64,000 nucleotides of DNA from contig NZ_CP119676.1 in assembly GCF_029318635.1 (NCBI RefSeq), positions 372,001 through 436,000 on the forward strand, read 5' to 3'. Position numbers and translations under genes: made by a program. The notes below the pieces were generated by a model. The model did not search any database and was not told the DNA's origin. It worked only from the letters and a program-made list of their open reading frames with translations. The DNA comes from Varunaivibrio sulfuroxidans. GTDB lineage: Bacteria > Pseudomonadota > Alphaproteobacteria > Rhodospirillales > Magnetovibrionaceae. Each line of letters starts with the position of its first letter. Position 1 is the stretch's first letter. Below, piece after piece: positions 1 through 61,970 of the stretch.

Positions 1-476
1 CGTTGCTCGAAAACGTCACCATCCCGGCTTTGGCGGCCCGCGACGGGGCGTTTAAGGCAAACCTGTTTAAAACCGACCGCAGCCTGAAGGATGTTCATGC
101 GGTGGGCGAGGAGGTTCTGTGCGACGTCGGACTTCAAGATCAGATGCACGAGCAGGCTCGCTATCTTTCCCGTGGGGATAAACGGCGCCTGGAACTGGCG
201 TTGTGTCTGGCGCACCGTCCCCGGCTGATGTTGTTGGACGAGCCGACCGCGGGAATGTCGCGCCATGAAACGGAACGCACCATCGACCTTTTAAAGAAAA
301 TATCGTCTCGCGGCGTGACCAAGGTGATCGTCGAGCACGACATGAGCGTCGTCTTCGCCCTGTCGGACACCATTACCGTTCTCGCCCAGGGGCAAGTCAT
401 CGCCGAGGGCGGTCCCGATGCGGTGCGCGGCAATCCAAAAGTGATCGAAGCCTACCTCGGGGAGGAGCAGGAATGA
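1..476 (+). CDS. ABC transporter ATP-binding protein, LivG-like (5'-truncated)
   Basis: This is the C-terminal part of an ATPase of the branched-chain amino acid/amide importer class; the reading frame runs in from upstream of the window, so the Walker A motif is not visible. Visible motifs are a variant ABC signature LSRGD (residues 55-59 of the visible part, where LSxGQ or LSxGE is usual), Walker B LLDEP (77-81) and the H-loop His of EHD (112). The next gene starts inside its stop codon (ATGA overlap), so the two ATPases are co-translated. Family membership is clear. The substrate cannot be told from here: amino acids, urea or short amides are all possible. Confidence 0.85.
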   Translation, partial: LLENVTIPALAARDGAFKANLFKTDRSLKDVHAVGEEVLCDVGLQDQMHEQARYLSRGDKRRLELALCLAHRPRLMLLDEPTAGMSRHETERTIDLLKKISSRGVTKVIVEHDMSVVFALSDTITVLAQGQVIAEGGPDAVRGNPKVIEAYLGEEQE

Positions 477-1219
477 CCGCCCTTGCACAAAACACCCAGC
501 AGGAATTGCGCGCCGATGCTTTTTTCTCCTGCCGGAACATCAACGCCTATTACGGGGAAAGCTACGTCGTTCAGGATGTCAGTTTCGATATTCACGAAGG
601 TGAGATCGTGGCGCTCCTGGGGCGCAACGGGGCGGGCAAGACATCGACCTTGCGGACTATCGCCCGGGCGCACAACCCGGCGCTGACGTCGGGGGAAATC
701 CACCTGAACGGCACCGCGCTGCATTCCCTGCAGGCCTTCGAAGCCGCCCAGGCGGGGGTCCAACTGGTTCCCGAAGACCGCCGGATCATCCCCGGGATCA
801 CGGTCGAGGAAAACCTTATTTTGGCGCAAATCGAAGGCGCTCCGGGCTGGCCGTTGGCGCGCATTTACGAGCATTTCCCGCGCCTCGCCGAACGGCGCAC
901 GCAACAGGCCACCACCATGTCCGGCGGCGAGCAGCAGATGCTCGCGGTGGCGCGGGCGCTGGCTCGGGATTTGAAACTGTTGCTTCTGGACGAACCCTAC
1001 GAGGGGCTGGCCCCGGTGATCGTCCATGAAATCGAGGCCATCCTGCATGAAGTCAAGGCCCTGGGGATCACCACGGTGATCGTCGAGCAAAATGCCGTCG
1101 CGGCGTTGAAACTCGCCGACAGGGCGATCATCCTCGATGTCGGCGAGGTCGTCTTCACGGGAACCGCCAAAGAGGTCTTGGACAATAAAGAACTACGCGA
1201 AGAATATTTGGCGATCTAG
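473..1219 (+). CDS. ABC transporter ATP-binding protein, LivF-like
   Basis: A complete 248-residue second ATPase of a branched-chain amino acid/amide importer. It shows Walker A GRNGAGKT (50-57), signature MSGGEQQ (149-155), Walker B LLLDEP (170-175) followed by YEGLAP, which is typical of LivF, and a C-terminal dimer segment. It overlaps the preceding LivG-like gene by 4 bp. Such ATPases work in pairs under two membrane permeases and a periplasmic binding protein, which should lie upstream of the window. The nearby acetamidase at 5746 makes an amide substrate conceivable, but that is only inference. Confidence 0.88.
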   Translation: MTALAQNTQQELRADAFFSCRNINAYYGESYVVQDVSFDIHEGEIVALLGRNGAGKTSTLRTIARAHNPALTSGEIHLNGTALHSLQAFEAAQAGVQLVPEDRRIIPGITVEENLILAQIEGAPGWPLARIYEHFPRLAERRTQQATTMSGGEQQMLAVARALARDLKLLLLDEPYEGLAPVIVHEIEAILHEVKALGITTVIVEQNAVAALKLADRAIILDVGEVVFTGTAKEVLDNKELREEYLAI

Positions 1220-48392: not shown

Positions 48393-48743
48393 ATGTCGAA
48401 TAACCCGGAAAAAGATGATTACAAAAGGCTGATGGACCAAAAACGGTTTTTCGGAGAGGTTGAGCAGGGGCTGCAGATTGCCAATCGTGAGATCATTCAC
48501 AGCCGAATACCGACTCTGAACAAAGAATCCGTTTTGTCCTTCGCTGTTGTCGTCGCCCGCATGCGGGCGACGTATCTTGAGGCCGCGTTTCAGATTTCGA
48601 CAACGGACCACGCGCTGGAACCGACCCAGGAGAGTGTCCAGAGACTGCGCAATGCTCGTGAAATGTACGAGGAGGGCAAGGCCGCCTTCGAAGCGCTACG
48701 TTATGCTATCGAGCGTGGCTACGTGGATGTTGATCTTAGCTGA
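48393..48743 (+). CDS. hypothetical helical protein (116 aa)
   Basis: A 116-residue soluble protein predicted to be helical, with SNNPEKDDYKRLMDQKRFFGEVEQGLQIANREIIHSRIPTL at the start and a heptad-like second half (VQRLRNAREMYEEGKAAFEALRYAIERGYVDVDL). No Cys, no membrane segment. Codon use is normal. It is divergent from the preceding gene across 200 bp and followed by a STAS protein on the other strand. Function not recognised. Confidence 0.65.
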   Translation: MSNNPEKDDYKRLMDQKRFFGEVEQGLQIANREIIHSRIPTLNKESVLSFAVVVARMRATYLEAAFQISTTDHALEPTQESVQRLRNAREMYEEGKAAFEALRYAIERGYVDVDLS

Positions 48744-48862: not shown

Positions 48863-49198
48863 TTAGAGCGTATGCGCAGTGGAAACGTCGGGAGCAAAAC
48901 ACAAAACCTCCCCCAATTGCGCTGTCTCAAGATACCGAGAGACCGTTTGAGAAACATCGACCAGAACAAATTTTTTGTTTAACCGAGCAGCCTTTTGATA
49001 GGCTTCCAAAAGGCACGCGATGCCGGAGCCATCAACCTCCGTTACTCGCGCCAGCTTGACCATGATTAGGTGAGCGCTGGAAATGGCTTGTAATAAAGTT
49101 TCTCGAAGCTCAAGCGCCGATTCCAGTTCAAGGCTTCCCTTAACGGACACAAGTGTCGCCCGTTCGTGGGTTGTTTCTATTTGTACGTTTGTTTTCAT
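48863..49198 (-). CDS. STAS-domain protein (anti-sigma factor antagonist-like)
   Basis: A 111-residue single STAS domain: VQIETTHERATLVSVKGSLELESALELRETLLQAI, then IMVKLARVTEVDGSGIACLLEAYQKAARLNKKFVLVDVS. In SpoIIAA-type antagonists a Ser in D-x-S-G is phosphorylated by a partner kinase; here DGSG at about 57-60 provides it. No RsbW-like kinase or sigma factor lies beside it, so the partner is unknown. An MlaB-type role is also possible, because MlaB is a STAS protein and MCE genes occur in this window. Confidence 0.82.
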   Translation of the reverse strand: MKTNVQIETTHERATLVSVKGSLELESALELRETLLQAISSAHLIMVKLARVTEVDGSGIACLLEAYQKAARLNKKFVLVDVSQTVSRYLETAQLGEVLCFAPDVSTAHTL

Positions 49199-49839
49199 GA
49201 TGGCTTACGCGCCTTTTTTTGTTTTTTCATTACGTTGTGCCGAGTGCACCTGCCATCCATATGCGATTTTTGTGCCGCAATTAAGTTGTTCCCACCTATC
49301 GGAATCTAAAAAATTAAAAAGACGATAAAGGTACATGAAGCATTGCTGCGCGTTTCGTCCGCCCCCTCAATGCGATAGCTATAGAGTAAAGAGCAGGTGG
49401 CGCTGGATAACCTGTGTTCCTTCCGGAATTCCTCCCAACAATATCGCATCTCTTGTTGACGCCTTGTGGATAAAAATACAAAGAAAGAATTTTACATTTT
49501 CGATTCGCGAAGCTGAGGACCTTAATTGCAGGATGCGAATCGCATATCGCCTCATTGGGGTAAAACTAAACAAGAAAGACAATTGTTTTTTTTAAAATGC
49601 AAAAAAAAATTTAAAAAAGGTTTCATTTTGATGAAAGAAATCGGCGAAAATTAAGCGCGACGTTAACGTTTCAGGTCGAATATCGATAGCAAAAAAACAT
49701 AAAAATTATTTAAAAAAAACATCCTAACACATTAAAATTAAAATGTTTTTTGTATAAGTAGGAACTTTTCTGTCTGGCTGGGTGGTTCCGTTTTTCAGAA
49801 AAAATTATCCCCCTTAAGGCTTGTTTTTAGGTAAAAATG
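49199..49839. other. AT-rich gene-free stretch
   Basis: No gene is supported. From about 49460 the sequence becomes very AT-rich with long A and T tracts (49588-49620, 49686-49760), in contrast to the GC-rich neighbourhood. Two short open frames of 67 and 86 codons lack ribosome sites and family features. It may be a transferred relic or an UP/bent-DNA region for the promoter at 49840-49878. Confidence 0.5.
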
Positions 49840-49878
49840 CTCTCTAGGAGAGAGTTTGGCATGGCATATGCTTATAAT
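49840..49878 (+). promoter_or_regulatory. candidate promoter: perfect TATAAT overlapping a sigma54-like -24/-12 site
   Basis: TATAAT at 49873-49878 is a perfect sigma70 -10 box, without a good -35. TTGGCATGGCATATGCT at 49856-49872 matches the sigma54 consensus with GG (49858-49859) and GC (49870-49871) exactly 12 bp apart and two substitutions. Both predict a start near 49883-49886. An imperfect palindrome CTCTC-TAG-GAGAG lies just upstream (49840-49852). Promoter use is inferred. Confidence 0.5.
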
Positions 49879-49883
49879 AGGTT

Positions 49884-50071
49884 AACAGTCTGACGGAGAC
49901 GGAATAGACCTCCTCCCCCTCCCCATGAAGTTCTGTTTCTTCAGACTGCCCCTATAAAAAGAAACCCACAGTTTGAAAAATGGGTCCAAAAAAATAAAAG
50001 TGCCCCTAAAGCACCAAGAAACACAAACAGACTGCCCCCCCGTGTCCCCCCTCCACGGGGGGTTTTCTTTT
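49884..50071 (+). ncRNA. candidate small RNA with C-rich anti-Shine-Dalgarno loop
   Basis: An unannotated transcript of about 188 nt is proposed from signals alone. Hairpin 1 pairs CAGTCTGA (49886-49893) with TCAGACTG (49941-49948), with an inner stem ACGGAA/TTCTGT, and exposes the loop CCTCCTCCCCCTCCCC (49909-49924). Then ACCCA/TGGGT (49965-49985), GTGC/GCAC with loop CCCCTAAA (50000-50014) and the terminator hairpin follow. CAGACTGCCCC occurs twice (49942 and 50028). Alphaproteobacterial sRNAs with CCUCCUCCC-type loops bind ribosome sites of target mRNAs; that role is inferred here. Confidence 0.55.
50036..50071 (+). terminator. rho-independent terminator of the candidate sRNA
   Basis: Stem CCCCCCGTG (50036-50044) with CACGGGGGG (50054-50062), 9-nt loop TCCCCCCTC, then TTTTCTTTT. 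There is no coding gene upstream on this strand for more than 1.3 kb, which suggests it ends an RNA gene. Confidence 0.8.
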
Positions 50072-50165
50072 GGGGCTACGAGGTGAATAGGTCACTGACC
50101 CTAAACCTCTTGAATATGGAGAATGCCTTGTGTCTTGAAGTGGAGAGACGACCCTTAGGAAGAAA

Positions 50166-50441
50166 TTATTCAAGAATCTCGCGCCCCGCCGAAGTTAACT
50201 TGCAGACGATCCAGTCGGGCTTAAGTGGGTTGTCGAACCACGGTTCGGCCCATCCGTTCCGAATACAACTTTCAACCGTTCGCAAATTTATTTTTTGCCC
50301 TTTTTCATCGAAAAGCGGCAGCTTTCCACCGGGCTGCGACAATCCACGGCGCAACCATTTCGCCTGAGAGTCGCTTGGCGCGTGGGCGCTTTTTTTTTCC
50401 GTTGAAGATTTTTTCCTTTGGGGCATATTTTTAGGCTCCAT
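50166..50441 (-). CDS. hypothetical small protein (91 aa)
   Basis: A 91-residue protein with a basic N-terminal stretch (PQRKKSSTEKKSAH) and a compact C-terminal part AKWLRRGLSQPGGKLPLFDEKGQKINLRTVESCIRNGWAEPWFDNPLKPDWIVCKLTSAGREIL, with the alternation of a winged-helix-like domain. This could be a DNA-binding accessory protein, but the assignment rests only on the helix-turn pattern and the LTSAGREIL ending often seen in winged helices. Divergent from cutA with 43 bp between starts, so the two share a control region. Confidence 0.65.
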   Translation of the reverse strand: MEPKNMPQRKKSSTEKKSAHAPSDSQAKWLRRGLSQPGGKLPLFDEKGQKINLRTVESCIRNGWAEPWFDNPLKPDWIVCKLTSAGREILE

Positions 50442-50484: not shown

Positions 50485-50862
50485 ATGACGACGGCGCCAC
50501 ATCGCGACAGGCAAACGCCCTCGACTTTCGAGAACCCTACCTCGACACAGGCGGTTATGGTCTATCTGACGACTCCAGACCGTGAAACCGCCGAGGCCAT
50601 CGCCCGCGACCTGATCGATCAACGTCTTGCGGCATGCGCCAATCTCATCGAAGATATGACGTCAATATTTTTCTGGGAAGGCGAAGTCCGCCATGACCGG
50701 GAATGTATCGTTATCCTTAAAACGCAATATCGGGTGATGTCGGACTTGGTTGCAGCCGTCAAGGCGCTTCATCCCTATGAATGCCCGTGTATCGTCTCGG
50801 TTCCCATCGTTGGCGGCGCCGCGGATTTTATTCATTGGATTAAAACCCAAACTTCAATTTAG
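50485..50862 (+). CDS. cutA: divalent-cation tolerance protein CutA
   Basis: A 125-residue trimeric CutA1 protein. The first 22 residues are a variable extension; the core QAVMVYLTTPDRETAEAIARDLIDQRLAACANLIEDMTSIFFWEGEVRHDRECIVILKTQYRVMSDLVAAVKALHPYECPCIVSVPI shows LAACANL, the E-x-E-x-V strand and the HPYECP signature. Genetic links to copper tolerance exist, but the biochemical role is unsettled. Confidence 0.94.
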   Translation: MTTAPHRDRQTPSTFENPTSTQAVMVYLTTPDRETAEAIARDLIDQRLAACANLIEDMTSIFFWEGEVRHDRECIVILKTQYRVMSDLVAAVKALHPYECPCIVSVPIVGGAADFIHWIKTQTSI

Positions 50863-55621: not shown

Positions 55622-56766
55622 TGACGGACAGTATAACTTCGATAAAAAGAAAACCGCGCACAGCGCCTACGCAGGTCGATGCCGACGCCGTGTTGAACGC
55701 CTTGACCCAGACGGTGATGGTCATCGGCGCCGATGACCGCATCATGTATGTTAACGGGGCCGCCGAACAATTCTTTAAAATCAGCGCGAACAAATTGAAA
55801 AAGAAGTATCTTTTTCGCGAGCTCATCCCCGAGGACAATCCTATATACGGTCTGGTCGTGCAAATTCGCGCCGGTGCGTACGCGGTTTCCGAATATGGCA
55901 TCCATCTGCGCTCGCCGTTATTCGGCCATTACTTGATCAACGCCCAGGCGTCGATGATTCTGGAAACGCCCGGCGCCACGGTTCTTTCCCTTCGCGAGCG
56001 TTCGATCACCGATCAAATCGATCACCGCCTTACCCACCGCGGCGCGGCGCGTTCGGTGTCGGCGATGGCCGCCATGCTCGCCCATGAAGTTAAGAATCCG
56101 TTGTCGGGAATACGTGGCGCCGCTCAACTCCTAGAAAGTAGCGTCAGCGCGGAAGATCATTCACTGACAACATTGATACGCGATGAAACGGATCGTATTT
56201 GCGCCCTGGTGGACCGCATGGACGTTTTCTCCGAAACCGGCCCGATCGTAGCCGAAGCGGTTAATATCCACCTTGTTCTCGATCGGGTGCGCCGGTTGGC
56301 CGAAAGCGGTTTCGGCAGGCACGTCCGTTTCATAGAACACTACGATCCCTCGCTGCCGCCGGTTAGGGGCAGCCGAGACCAATTGATGCAAGTTTTCGTC
56401 AACTTGGTCAAAAACGCTTGTGAGGCGTGCCCTGAAATTGGAGGGGAAATCATTTTAAAAACCGCCTACAAGCACGGCGTTCGGTTTGCGATGCCGGGAT
56501 CGAAAAGCAAAGTGCATCTTCCCTTGATGGTTAGCGTTCAAGATAATGGTCAGGGCATGGCGGAAGATGTTCAAACCTATATTTTTGATCCGTTTGTGAC
56601 CACCAAACCCAAGGGGAGTGGGCTGGGGCTTCCCCTCGTGGCGAAGATTGTCGGAGACCATGGCGGTGTGATCGATTTTGAATCTCAACCGGGACGAACT
56701 GTTTTTCGGGTTATGCTGGCGATGGAGCAGACAACGGATAAGACGGGGGAAGGGACGCGCGAATGA
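55618..56766 (+). CDS. ntrB: nitrogen sensor kinase NtrB
   Basis: A 382-residue cytoplasmic histidine kinase. PAS domain about 22-130 ([29 protein letters not shown]), HisKA with H156 in [18 protein letters not shown], then HATPase_c with [15 protein letters not shown] and GSGLGLPLV. NtrB phosphorylates NtrC under nitrogen limitation and is turned into a phosphatase by PII. Start 55618 overlaps the dusB stop; its own stop overlaps ntrC. The long open frame upstream lies inside dusB. Confidence 0.95.
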
Positions 56767-58199
56767 CGGCAAAAACCGTTTTAATCGCCGACGATGACGA
56801 GGCGATCCGCACCGTGTTAAACCAGGCCCTCGGGCGGGCGGGGTATCACGTTCGAACAACGGGCAATGCGTCGTCACTCTGGCAGTGGGTTAAGGAGGGT
56901 CTGGGCGATCTCGTGATTACCGACGTGATGATGCCCGATGAAAACGGGCTCGATCTTATTCCGCGTATTCTTAAGGTTCGCCCCAATTTGCGTATCTTGG
57001 TGATGAGCGCGCAAAACACCTTGTTGACCGCCGTCAAGGCCACCGAACGGGGCGCCTTTGAATATTTGCCCAAGCCCTTTGACTTGAATGAGCTGCTCGG
57101 CGTGGTTCGCCGCGCCTTGGAAACGCCACGCGGCGCACAACCCGACCGCGCGCGCGGAGAGGAAGGTGAAGATCTCCCCTTGATTGGGCGTTCGAGTTCG
57201 ATGCAGGACATCTATCGAACCCTGGCGCGCCTGATGAATACCGACCTGTCGGTTATCATCACGGGAGAAAGCGGCACGGGAAAGGAGCTGATCGCCCGCG
57301 CCCTGCACGATTACGGCAAGCGTCGAAAAAAACCGTTTGTCGCGATCAATATGGCGGCCATTCCGCGTGAACTGATCGAAAGCGAGCTGTTCGGCCATGA
57401 AAAGGGCGCCTTCACCGGGGCGACGCAGCGGGGCGTCGGGCGTTTTGAGCAGGCCCAGGGCGGAACCTTGTTTCTCGACGAAATCGGCGACATGCCGCCC
57501 GAGGCGCAAACCCGATTGTTGCGCGTTCTACAAGAGGGCGAATATACCACGGTTGGTGGGCGGACGCCGGTTAAAACCAATGTTCGCATCATCGCCGCCA
57601 CCCACCGCGATTTGAAGCAGCTGATCCGCCAAGGGTTGTTTCGCGAAGACTTGTTCTTCCGCCTCAACGTCGCCCCAATTCGCCTGCCCCCCTTACGCGA
57701 ACGGGTAGACGATATTCCCGAGTTGGTGCGCCACTTCATTTCGCTGGCCGCCAGCGAAGGGTTGCCATGGAAGACGGTTTCTCCGGAGGCCATGGAGCGC
57801 CTACAGCGCCATTCGTGGCCGGGCAACGTGCGTGAACTGGAAAACATGATCAAGCGCATGGCCGCATTATGCGCCGAGGAAGATATCGGCCTTGAGGCTA
57901 TTGAAACCGAACTGAACGATAGTGTGCCCATGGCTCCGGCGCCGGATGATTCTGGGGGGCTTTCGGCGGTGATCGAACGGCAGTTGCAGACTTATTTTTC
58001 CGCTCACGGCAAGGCGCTTCCCGCCTCGGGATTACACGAAAGAGTGGTTCGCGAGGTCGAACGTCCGTTGATTTTGTTGACGTTGCAGGCGACCAGAGGC
58101 AATCAAGTCAAGGCGTCCGAGGTTCTTGGTCTTAATCGCAATACCCTGCGTAAAAAAATCCGCGAGCTCAACATTCCGATCGTACGTGGCGGGCGATGA
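56763..58199 (+). CDS. ntrC: sigma54-dependent nitrogen regulator NtrC
   Basis: A 478-residue activator: receiver domain with D54 in [15 protein letters not shown]+ domain with Walker A GESGTGKE, sigma54 contact loop GAFTGA at 215-220, Walker [14 protein letters not shown], and a C-terminal Fis-type helix-turn-helix ([23 protein letters not shown]). Phosphorylated by NtrB, it activates genes for nitrogen assimilation. All key residues are intact, which contrasts with NtrX three genes further on. Confidence 0.96.
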
Positions 58200-60572: not shown

Positions 60573-61970
60573 ATGGCGAACGACATCCTCATTGTTGACG
60601 ACGAAGCCGATATCAGGGTTTTGACGTCTGGAATTCTTCAAGATGAAGGCCATCATTGCCGGCTTGCCGCCAATAGCGACGACGCCTTGAAACATATCGA
60701 AACCCGCAGACCGGACCTCGTTCTTTTGGACATTTGGTTGCAGGGAAGTCGTCTTGACGGTCTTGGAATTTTGGGCGCCATCAAAAAACACGCCCCGAGC
60801 CTGCCGGTCGTGATGATGAGTGGTCACGGCACGATTGAAACGGCGGTCAACGCTATTAAGCAGGGCGCCTATGAGTTTATCGAGAAACCTTTCAAAGCCG
60901 ACCGCTTGGTTCTGGTCGTGGAAAGGGCCTTGGAAGCCGCCCGACTGAAACGTGAACTCGAAGAGTTGCGTCTACGCACAGACAGTGATGACGATCTGAT
61001 CGGTCAGTCCAGCGTGATGGCTACGCTGCGCCAAACGATCGAGCGTGTCGCCCCGGCCAATTCCAGGGTGCTTATTACCGGCCCCTCGGGGTCGGGCAAG
61101 GAGGTCGCCGCGCGGAAACTTCATGGTGCGTCACCACGCAGCAAAGGCCCCTTCGTCGTCGTTAATTGCGCTACCATGGCTCCCGACCGGGTGGAAAGCG
61201 CGTTGTTTGGTGTCGAGAAAAATGACGAGGCGAACGGTAATCACCAAATCGGTTTTTTCGAGGCAGCGCATAACGGGACGTTGTTTTTGGACGAAATTAC
61301 GGATATGCCCGTTGAAACGCAGGGGAAAATTGTCCGCGTTCTACAAGAACAAATTTTTTCCCGAGTGGGCGGAACGGCGCGTATCGAGGTCGATGTGCGC
61401 GTTGTCGCCGCCGCGACTCGCGCAATCCAGGATGAAATCGCCGCGGGGCGGTTTCGCGAGGATCTTTACTATCGCTTGAGCGTGGTGCCCATAGAAATTC
61501 CGCCGCTTAGAAACCGGCGCGACGACATTCCCATCCTGGCGCAGTATTTCATGAATAATGTCGCCAAGCACAACGGTCGATCTCCCCGTACCCTCGCCAA
61601 TGACGCCATCGCCGCCCTGCAGGCCTATAATTGGCCGGGCAACGTTCGCGAGTTGAAAAATGTCATCGAACGCATATTGATCCTTGCCCCTGGGGATTCG
61701 GTTATGGCGATCCGCGCGGATATGTTGCCGGGTGAATTGCGCAGCTCTTCCGCGAAGGTTCCGGCGGCCACGGGAAACACAGAAATATTAGCGCTGCCCC
61801 TGCGCGAGGCGCGGGAGATGTTTGAAAGGGAATATCTTATTTCTCAGGTCCGTCGTTTTAACGGCAACATCTCCAAGACGGCCAATTTCGTCGGCATGGA
61901 ACGTTCCGCCTTGCACCGTAAATTAAAGGCGCTTGGCGTCGATGCGGAAACCGTCCTCAAAGGAGAATAA
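60573..61970 (+). CDS. ntrX: NtrX response regulator, GAFTGA loop replaced
   Basis: A 465-residue NtrC-family regulator: receiver with D53 in LVLLDIWLQG, AAA+ domain with Walker A GPSGSGKE, Walker [14 protein letters not shown] and a Fis-type helix-turn-helix (NISKTANFVGMERSALHRKLKAL). Where NtrC has GAFTGA, residues 214-226 read VEKNDEANGNHQI, so the sigma54 contact is missing. It probably regulates without sigma54, as a binder of sigma70 promoters. The 97-bp gap from ntrY could hold its own promoter. Confidence 0.94.
   Translation: MANDILIVDDEADIRVLTSGILQDEGHHCRLAANSDDALKHIETRRPDLVLLDIWLQGSRLDGLGILGAIKKHAPSLPVVMMSGHGTIETAVNAIKQGAYEFIEKPFKADRLVLVVERALEAARLKRELEELRLRTDSDDDLIGQSSVMATLRQTIERVAPANSRVLITGPSGSGKEVAARKLHGASPRSKGPFVVVNCATMAPDRVESALFGVEKNDEANGNHQIGFFEAAHNGTLFLDEITDMPVETQGKIVRVLQEQIFSRVGGTARIEVDVRVVAAATRAIQDEIAAGRFREDLYYRLSVVPIEIPPLRNRRDDIPILAQYFMNNVAKHNGRSPRTLANDAIAALQAYNWPGNVRELKNVIERILILAPGDSVMAIRADMLPGELRSSSAKVPAATGNTEILALPLREAREMFEREYLISQVRRFNGNISKTANFVGMERSALHRKLKALGVDAETVLKGE

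Follow-up and report, generated by a model that had tools for sequence, protein, structure and literature searches.

A candidate sigma54-driven small RNA with an anti-Shine-Dalgarno loop in Varunaivibrio sulfuroxidans and some of its relatives

We describe a locus in Varunaivibrio sulfuroxidans that is very likely, from its sequence and that of its counterparts, a real small RNA (sRNA) gene retained in part of the relatives of this bacterium. The best explanation of the locus, and one that we consider probable, is a free-standing, trans-acting anti-Shine-Dalgarno sRNA driven by sigma54.

Structure of the locus

The window, the whole stretch of 64,000 nucleotides that was analyzed (G000:C1:372001-436000), belongs to the single-contig genome of V. 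sulfuroxidans (3,066,297 bases). The nearest cultured relative of V. sulfuroxidans TC8 is Magnetovibrio blakemorei (PMC10305379). The putative RNA sits in a gap with a STAS protein gene on one side and the genes for a 91-aa protein and then a CutA1 protein on the other (Table 1). No open reading frame (ORF) of at least 60 codons was listed between 49596 and 50082, in agreement with the coding-free stretch described in the first-pass annotation, and all sequence elements named there were read directly at their positions. The part of the gap between the STAS gene and the RNA (49200-49860) is A+T-rich. A Pfam scan of the six neighboring ORFs assigned STAS, CutA1 and Response_reg domains and left three without a match. 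The two small proteins of 116 and 91 aa accompany STAS or CutA neighbors in several families of the Rhodospirillales, and in some other families the STAS gene adjoins the 91-aa gene (e.g., L032, L035, L036, L078 and L089). As had been noted, the window also carries an NtrC gene (56763-58196), as well as an NtrX gene (60573-61967), both above the NCBIfam cut-offs, and hfq lies just beyond the window at G000:C1:437432.

Table 1. Features of the RNA locus and its flanking genes (window positions)
Feature	Position	Strand	Basis or remark
Conserved 116-aa protein, no Pfam match	48393..48743	+	RNA directly behind this gene in Magnetovibrio-type genomes and G026
STAS-domain protein	48863..49198	-	Pfam scan
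Sigma54-type -24/-12 element TTGGCATGGCATATGC	49856..49871	+	Sequence; perfect counterparts in G026, G050, G063 and the sibling; rpoN present
TATAAT, probably incidental (A+T-rich stretch separating -12 from +1)	49873..49878	+	No -35; missed by promoter scan
Predicted transcription start	49883..49884	+	Placed 12-13 nt past the C of the -12 GC
5' hairpin (19-bp stem interrupted by a bulged C; 24-nt loop)	49886..49948	+	Fold; equivalent covarying hairpin in relatives
Apical loop AGACCTCCTCCCCCTCCCCATGAA holding the anti-Shine-Dalgarno CCTCCTCCC (49909-49917)	49906..49929	+	Sequence, fold
Linker	49942..50038	+	11-nt repeat CAGACTGCCCC at 49942-49952 and 50028-50038
Weak terminator-like hairpin, possibly the end of the transcript of the 91-aa gene	49999..50015	-	
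Strong terminator with a 9-bp stem, the C-rich 9-nt loop TCCCCCCTC and a T tract	50036..50071	+	
Conserved 91-aa protein, no Pfam match, synteny anchor	50166..50441	-	
CutA1-family protein	50485..50862	+	Pfam scan

At the base of the 5' hairpin, CAGTCTGA (49886-49893) pairs perfectly with TCAGACTG (49941-49948) over 8 bp, as had been claimed. The 16-nt loop proposed for this stem did not hold up: because the stem resumes with 11 further pairs after a single bulged C, the loop comprises 24 nt on a stem of 19 bp. The sequence CCTCCTCCCCCTCCCC is read at 49909-49924, and the CCUCCUCCC motif is unpaired at 49909-49917 inside the loop, with one exact copy in 49841-50075. The linker also repeats TGCCCCTA, at 49947-49954 and 50001-50008. 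In the terminator, CCCCCCGTG (50036-50044) pairs with CACGGGGGG (50054-50062) and is followed by TTTTCTTTT (50063-50071), so that the unit closes at 50071 as the first-pass annotation had stated. The folding z-score was -4.1 (none of 200 dinucleotide shuffles folded as well) and -5.1 with 100 shuffles.

To put the hairpin in a genomic setting, we used a 464-kb sample of V. sulfuroxidans consisting of the window and twenty 20-kb stretches, one of which was picked for holding a sibling RNA described below. This sample contained 15 hairpins with a C-rich loop, and a terminator followed only two of them, the window RNA and a hairpin at G000:C1:~1888725 on the minus strand; the scan found no second C-rich-loop hairpin within the window. 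Rfam includes an alpha-r14 model, and a search of the whole window at the gathering score matched only tRNA. At E values up to 5, the segment 49200-50165 matched Hrs1 and isrC only. Searches at the gathering score of 12 neighbor loci (including seven with the hairpin and the degenerate L087) and eight more returned only tRNAs.

Conservation by place and structure

A BLASTN search with 49820-50100 on 60 genomes, its own included, found no useful relative: 32 of the 60 matched at E <= 1, the best non-self match covering 37 bases at E 0.005 and the rest being pieces of 16-44 bases. The 91-aa protein, found in 44 of the 60 genomes (own included), served as the synteny anchor; a STAS search matched 48 of the 60, mostly paralogs at other places, and was used for synteny only. 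Between their 116-aa and 91-aa genes, the Magnetovibrio-type genomes (genera g2 and g4) have a long hairpin, whose loop reads, for example, AACTCCTCCTTCCCCCCACATCACC, and then a terminator. Synteny places an equivalent hairpin and terminator in seven Magnetovibrio-type genomes and, outside that group, in G026 and G050, which represent two other families; the copy in G063 is near-identical to that in G050. As in the window, the hairpin of G050 is flanked by a divergent STAS gene and by an ORF that looks CutA-like by eye. This retention at the corresponding place in some relatives, though the sequence has diverged, upholds the earlier claim of a separate sRNA gene.

Other genomes keep the flanking genes and no such hairpin, namely five further loci of the same family (genera g3 and g5; L064, L066, L067, L077 and L090), and G002 of the same family has a degenerate hairpin only (L087). 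Among 19 loci read from other families, the hairpin was recognized in one (L079, from G026). When 53 named loci of the 116-aa gene were scanned strictly, six had both hairpin and terminator (L126, L127, which is M. blakemorei MV-1, L130, L132, L138 and L152, partly the same genomes as in the synteny set), and L156 had a hairpin without a terminator. Conservation in related genomes, which the first-pass annotation had put forward as a test, is mixed: some relatives retain both hairpin and terminator, others have the flanking genes without them, and only some of the RNA-bearing relatives share the promoter class.

Across seven sequences of the 5' hairpin, 12 of 27 pairs showed changes on both sides, compared with 4.9 in shuffles (none of 500 reached 12), and the same count with the structure slid along the alignment was at most 5. 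Counted by further pair types, 36 of 500 shuffles reached the observed value. The C-rich loop is kept while the hairpin covaries. In the Magnetovibrio-type copies, a pairing of an upstream GGTGAT with ATCACC of the loop was considered and dropped; it lies in the promoter region and was not seen in G000, G026 or G050.

A covariance model (R1) built from six of the sequences used for this covariation count gave seven strong matches (E <= 1e-18) in the 317 genomes of the order. It did not recover the V. sulfuroxidans copy (5.8 bits, E 8), and because of this low sequence score we grouped the window copy with the others by position and architecture. Matches at E <= 1e-5 in nine more genomes (10 places) were rejected as members: none of the 10 loci yielded a C-rich-loop hairpin in the hairpin scan, and in the seven with a printed alignment the match was mainly to the terminator. 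By the methods used, the total is 11 of 317 genomes, comprising the seven Magnetovibrio-type genomes, G026, G050, G063 and V. sulfuroxidans itself (G000). The shared position is well supported: wherever the RNA and hfq were on one contig (six genomes: G000, G001, G003, G009, G026 and G050), both have the same strand and hfq comes 13.4-15.5 kb further downstream; G063 has the two on different contigs.

Promoter

The -24/-12 element of the window has its GG at 49858-49859 and its GC at 49870-49871, in the 12-base register of sigma54 sites. It is imperfect, with T for C at the end of the -24 part and A for T in the -12 part, and the first paired base of the hairpin follows 15 nt after the C of the GC. 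A perfect TTGGCACG-N4-TTGC precedes the equivalent hairpin in G026, from another family (promoter TTGGCACGAACTTTGC), and in G050 and G063, from one genus of a third family (promoter TTGGCACGGTCCTTGC); there, the hairpin starts 13 nt past the C. The pattern TGGCAY-N5-WTGC occurred four times on both strands of the 464-kb sample, and two of these sites precede C-rich RNAs. V. sulfuroxidans has rpoN (Sigma54_DBD at G000:C1:2095686-2096165, E 1.4e-68), and in all the gene is present in 11 of the 12 genomes tested. The exception, the 99%-complete genome G002 with its degenerate RNA locus, had no Sigma54_DBD match.

The first-pass annotation had proposed overlapping sigma70 and sigma54 promoters, and the two halves of this claim fared differently. 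The sigma54 half gained from the perfect sites ahead of the equivalent hairpin in G026, G050 and G063, and a sigma54 promoter in V. sulfuroxidans is likely on these sequence features. The sigma70 half was not borne out: TATAAT is absent in the same three genomes, reading found no -35 hexamer 16-18 bases ahead of it, and a scan for consensus sigma70 promoters did not return the site.

The sigma54 site is missing from all seven Magnetovibrio-type copies, and the six of these genomes tested (all except G017) have rpoN. When aligned together with G002, the seven have in common, in varied form, a stretch with TCAAG that ends in GTGATTGG some 18 nt ahead of CCACRT; further upstream they share an ACTGC...AGTT box. 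Both boxes were noted upstream of the RNA in L063, L070, L076, L081, L082 and L096. They point to a different, possibly activator-bound promoter. The simplest history would be that an ancestral sigma54 promoter was replaced in the Magnetovibrio lineage.

We searched 260 bases upstream of nine sites (the window RNA and the sibling in G000, and the sites in G026, G050, G063, G055, G611, G368 and G429) for GCACY-N3-7-RGTGC and TGC-N11-GCA, representing NtrC-type and NifA-type sites, and found none. Because no such site was found in these regions, the suggested control by NtrC is unsupported.

Sibling RNAs and wider searches

At G000:C1:1888218, a perfect sigma54 site is followed by CCTCCCCCTCC, GCCCCGCCCC and a terminator, whose loop ATCCCCCTC inside GTG/CAC is very like that of the window RNA. 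The alignment of the window RNA with this sibling scored 57, and 1,000 dinucleotide shuffles reached at most 47; without the promoter the score was 46, a marginal value that one of 1,000 shuffles equaled. On folding, the C-rich part of the sibling formed no single long hairpin. About 500 bases from the sibling, at G000:C1 ~1888640-1888815 on the minus strand (L208, L188), lies the other C-rich-loop hairpin with a terminator, with the loop region ACCCCTCCTCCCCCCCTTGGGACG. It is convergent with the sibling in the same gap, behind what by eye is an NADH-dehydrogenase-like gene, and no promoter was recognized for it.

We next searched the order for TGGCAC-N5-TTGC with CCTCCYC 25-50 nt behind it. 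Matches were found in 9 of 317 genomes at 10 distinct places, and the reversed control gave 2 matches. Five places were kept, namely the sibling in G000 and those in G026, G050, G063 and G055; the sites in G026 and G050 were called intergenic from their flanking genes. The five dropped places (two in G066, and one each in G218, G221 and G053) had, by eye, no C-rich-loop hairpin with a terminator, and the G053 site precedes an ORF that by eye reads like nirB. In G055, the sigma54 site is followed by two C-rich-loop hairpins and a terminator; this is a weaker case, because a stop-free frame of 618 codons spans the site.

With the same pattern, a search of the class matched 18 of 385 genomes at 20 places, including the sibling in G000 (reversed control, 2 matches). 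A stop-free frame of 137-662 codons crosses 18 of the 19 other places. The five kept sites of the order are also spanned by such frames (133-618 codons; the window site by none), so a stop-free frame is not a fair test for excluding the 18. Three of these (G368, G429 and G695) have good C-rich-loop hairpins, with no terminator found behind them. In L217 and L218 (G429 and G695), a long G+C-rich hairpin presenting a CCTCCTCCCTCC loop comes after the sigma54-type site, either within an open frame or in front of one. In L231, from another family of the class (G611), a sigma54-type site, CCTCCTCCCCC and a terminator occur around 1501, and no stop-free frame crosses the site; this locus is possibly another RNA of the same kind.

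Comparison with known systems

In NfeR1/alpha-r14 of Sinorhizobium and other rhizobia, the CCUCCUCCC motif likewise lies in hairpin loops whose stems diverge, and the targets predicted there are mostly ABC transporters in a nitrogen context (PMC10746234). Those RNAs have three hairpins with the identical motif, whereas the window RNA has one, and NfeR1 has a sigma70 promoter that is activated by LsrB and repressed by NtrC and that, according to the authors, lacks the sigma54 signature (PMC10746234). The window RNA has a -24/-12 element, no -35 and no Rfam match. On the features tested, the window RNA thus appears to work most like NfeR1 without being a member of alpha-r14.

The CcsR/CIN1 RNAs carry a C-rich motif, and NrsZ is a nitrogen-linked sRNA of sigma54-using bacteria. 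The Pfam scan found no DUF1127 among the six neighboring ORFs of the window RNA. CcsR/CIN1 (cuckoo) of Rhodobacter sphaeroides are, like the window RNA, alphaproteobacterial sRNAs near a conserved small-protein gene; there, an RpoHI/RpoHII promoter drives four RNAs together with a DUF1127 gene, in contrast to a single, free-standing RNA with a sigma54-type site (PMC10253847). CJnc230 (FlmE) of Campylobacter jejuni resembles the window RNA in its RpoN dependence and its single-stranded putative anti-Shine-Dalgarno motif (PMC11187230). It differs in its short CCUU motif, in its unrelated bacterium and locus, and in arising by processing of the flgE mRNA, an RpoD promoter being additionally present (PMC11187230). 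NfiR and NfiS of Pseudomonas stutzeri are nitrogen-linked sRNAs in sigma54-using bacteria, and the cited part of that source does not describe them as anti-Shine-Dalgarno-loop RNAs (PMC6606865). In the open-licence PMC literature, the titles and abstract starts among the matches listed contained no description of the window RNA.

Proposed mechanism and candidate targets

Under the sigma54 reading, the polymerase and an enhancer-binding activator would start transcription at the -24/-12 element of a free-standing gene, yielding a predicted trans-acting RNA of about 188 nt (49884-50071). The part transcribed first would be the long hairpin, presenting an open CCUCCUCCC-type loop. This loop would pair with the G-rich Shine-Dalgarno sequences of chosen mRNAs, probably with Hfq, and keep ribosomes off; hfq was present in all eight genomes tested. 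Further contacts may be made by the C-rich linker and by the terminator loop, which is also C-rich. Judged by the motif, anti-Shine-Dalgarno action is likely, and the best candidate targets, still weak ones, may be ABC transporters for nitrogen compounds.

The 464-kb sample (about 15% of the genome) contains 382 ORFs of 120 codons or more, which we scanned with starts assigned by rule and not by annotation. A perfect complement of at least 10 bases within 30 nt before the start was found in two of them. One is a nitrate ABC transporter ATPase at G000:C1:4171 (TIGR01184, 593.9 bits against a cut-off of 291.8) and the other a LivF-like ATPase; the liv-type genes lie at G000:C1:603508-605690 on the minus strand. 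At least 9 bases were matched by four ORFs, adding a LivF/UrtE-like ORF (window 473-1216) and a heavy-metal P-type ATPase. The nine ORFs with at least 8 bases further include ntrX, matched through TTCATGGG, which is not a Shine-Dalgarno sequence, along with a hemerythrin-type protein, an unidentified ORF and the LivK-like and LivG-like genes next to the LivF-like one. The Liv-like assignments fall below the NCBIfam cut-offs. By duplex energy, the nitrate and LivF-like genes ranked only 7th and 8th of the 382. ABC ATPases made up two of the four ORFs with at least 9 bases (P 0.001, a post hoc value from a motif count of six ABC ATPases in 382, which is an under-count). Shuffled loops matched on average 1.1 ORFs with at least 9 bases, and because 28 of 500 reached four, the number of matches is itself unremarkable.

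Among 10 genomes searched at E <= 1e-100, the nitrate ABC gene turned up in five, of which G026 alone had a clear complement to its own loop; two of the others were gapped and two weak. The LivK relatives (2 of 10 genomes, E <= 1e-60) had no loop complement at a plausible start. The result is mostly negative, and target pairing is not conserved in general. We therefore take repression at Shine-Dalgarno sites to be likely and nitrogen-compound transporters to be a lead.

Only tentatively do we extend this picture to the order. The Rhodospirillales may have a small, fast-diverging group of sibling sigma54-wired anti-Shine-Dalgarno sRNAs, with an orthologous copy near cutA, upstream of the ntr-hfq region, and others at G000:C1:1888218, at ~1888725 minus and possibly in G055. 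Such RNAs would couple a sigma54 activator signal, via several C-rich contact sites including the terminator loop, to the translation of nitrogen-compound uptake genes, and the Magnetovibrio lineage would have kept the RNA and exchanged its promoter. We hold this joint scheme to be doubtful as a whole.

Alternative explanations

One alternative keeps the anti-Shine-Dalgarno sRNA and changes its promoter: transcription would start from a sigma70-type promoter made up of TATAAT and an activator, and the -24/-12 resemblance would be accidental. The perfect TATAAT, suitably spaced from the hairpin, fits this reading, as do the sigma70 promoter of NfeR1 with its LsrB activation (PMC10746234) and the Magnetovibrio-type copies, which use some promoter other than sigma54. 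However, there is no -35, the sigma70 scan missed the site, G026, G050 and G063 have the -24/-12 site without TATAAT, and TGGCAY-N5-WTGC is rare, with four occurrences in 464 kb. We consider a sigma70 origin unlikely.

The other alternatives concern function. The C-rich loops might titrate a protein or another sRNA instead of binding mRNAs, for which the several C-rich segments in one RNA and the C-rich siblings in the genome could be cited, as could CrfA of Caulobacter, which sequesters SisA-D (PMC12559287). The loop, however, is an exact Shine-Dalgarno complement that directly fits pairing with mRNAs, and a sponge is very unlikely. It is also highly improbable that the locus is no regulator and serves as a structured terminator or insulator between convergent units, C-rich by chance. 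It is true that the unit faces the 91-aa gene and includes a weak terminator on the minus strand, that terminators are common, and that several genomes of the same family lack the hairpin. Yet the 5' hairpin covaries around a kept C-rich loop, its register to the sigma54 sites is kept in two other families, and units of hairpin plus terminator are nearly unique in the 464-kb sample.

Implications

If the reading as a sigma54-driven anti-Shine-Dalgarno sRNA is true, it would extend such RNAs to a marine and magnetotactic branch of the Alphaproteobacteria and would link them to sigma54. Such RNAs may be under-counted, because both BLAST and a covariance model built from close relatives missed the window copy. 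V. sulfuroxidans is a marine sulfur-oxidising host, and both it and M. blakemorei are available as cultured hosts. The locus would also illustrate clearly how a regulatory RNA can retain its place, loop and terminator through turnover of its stem sequence and promoter class.
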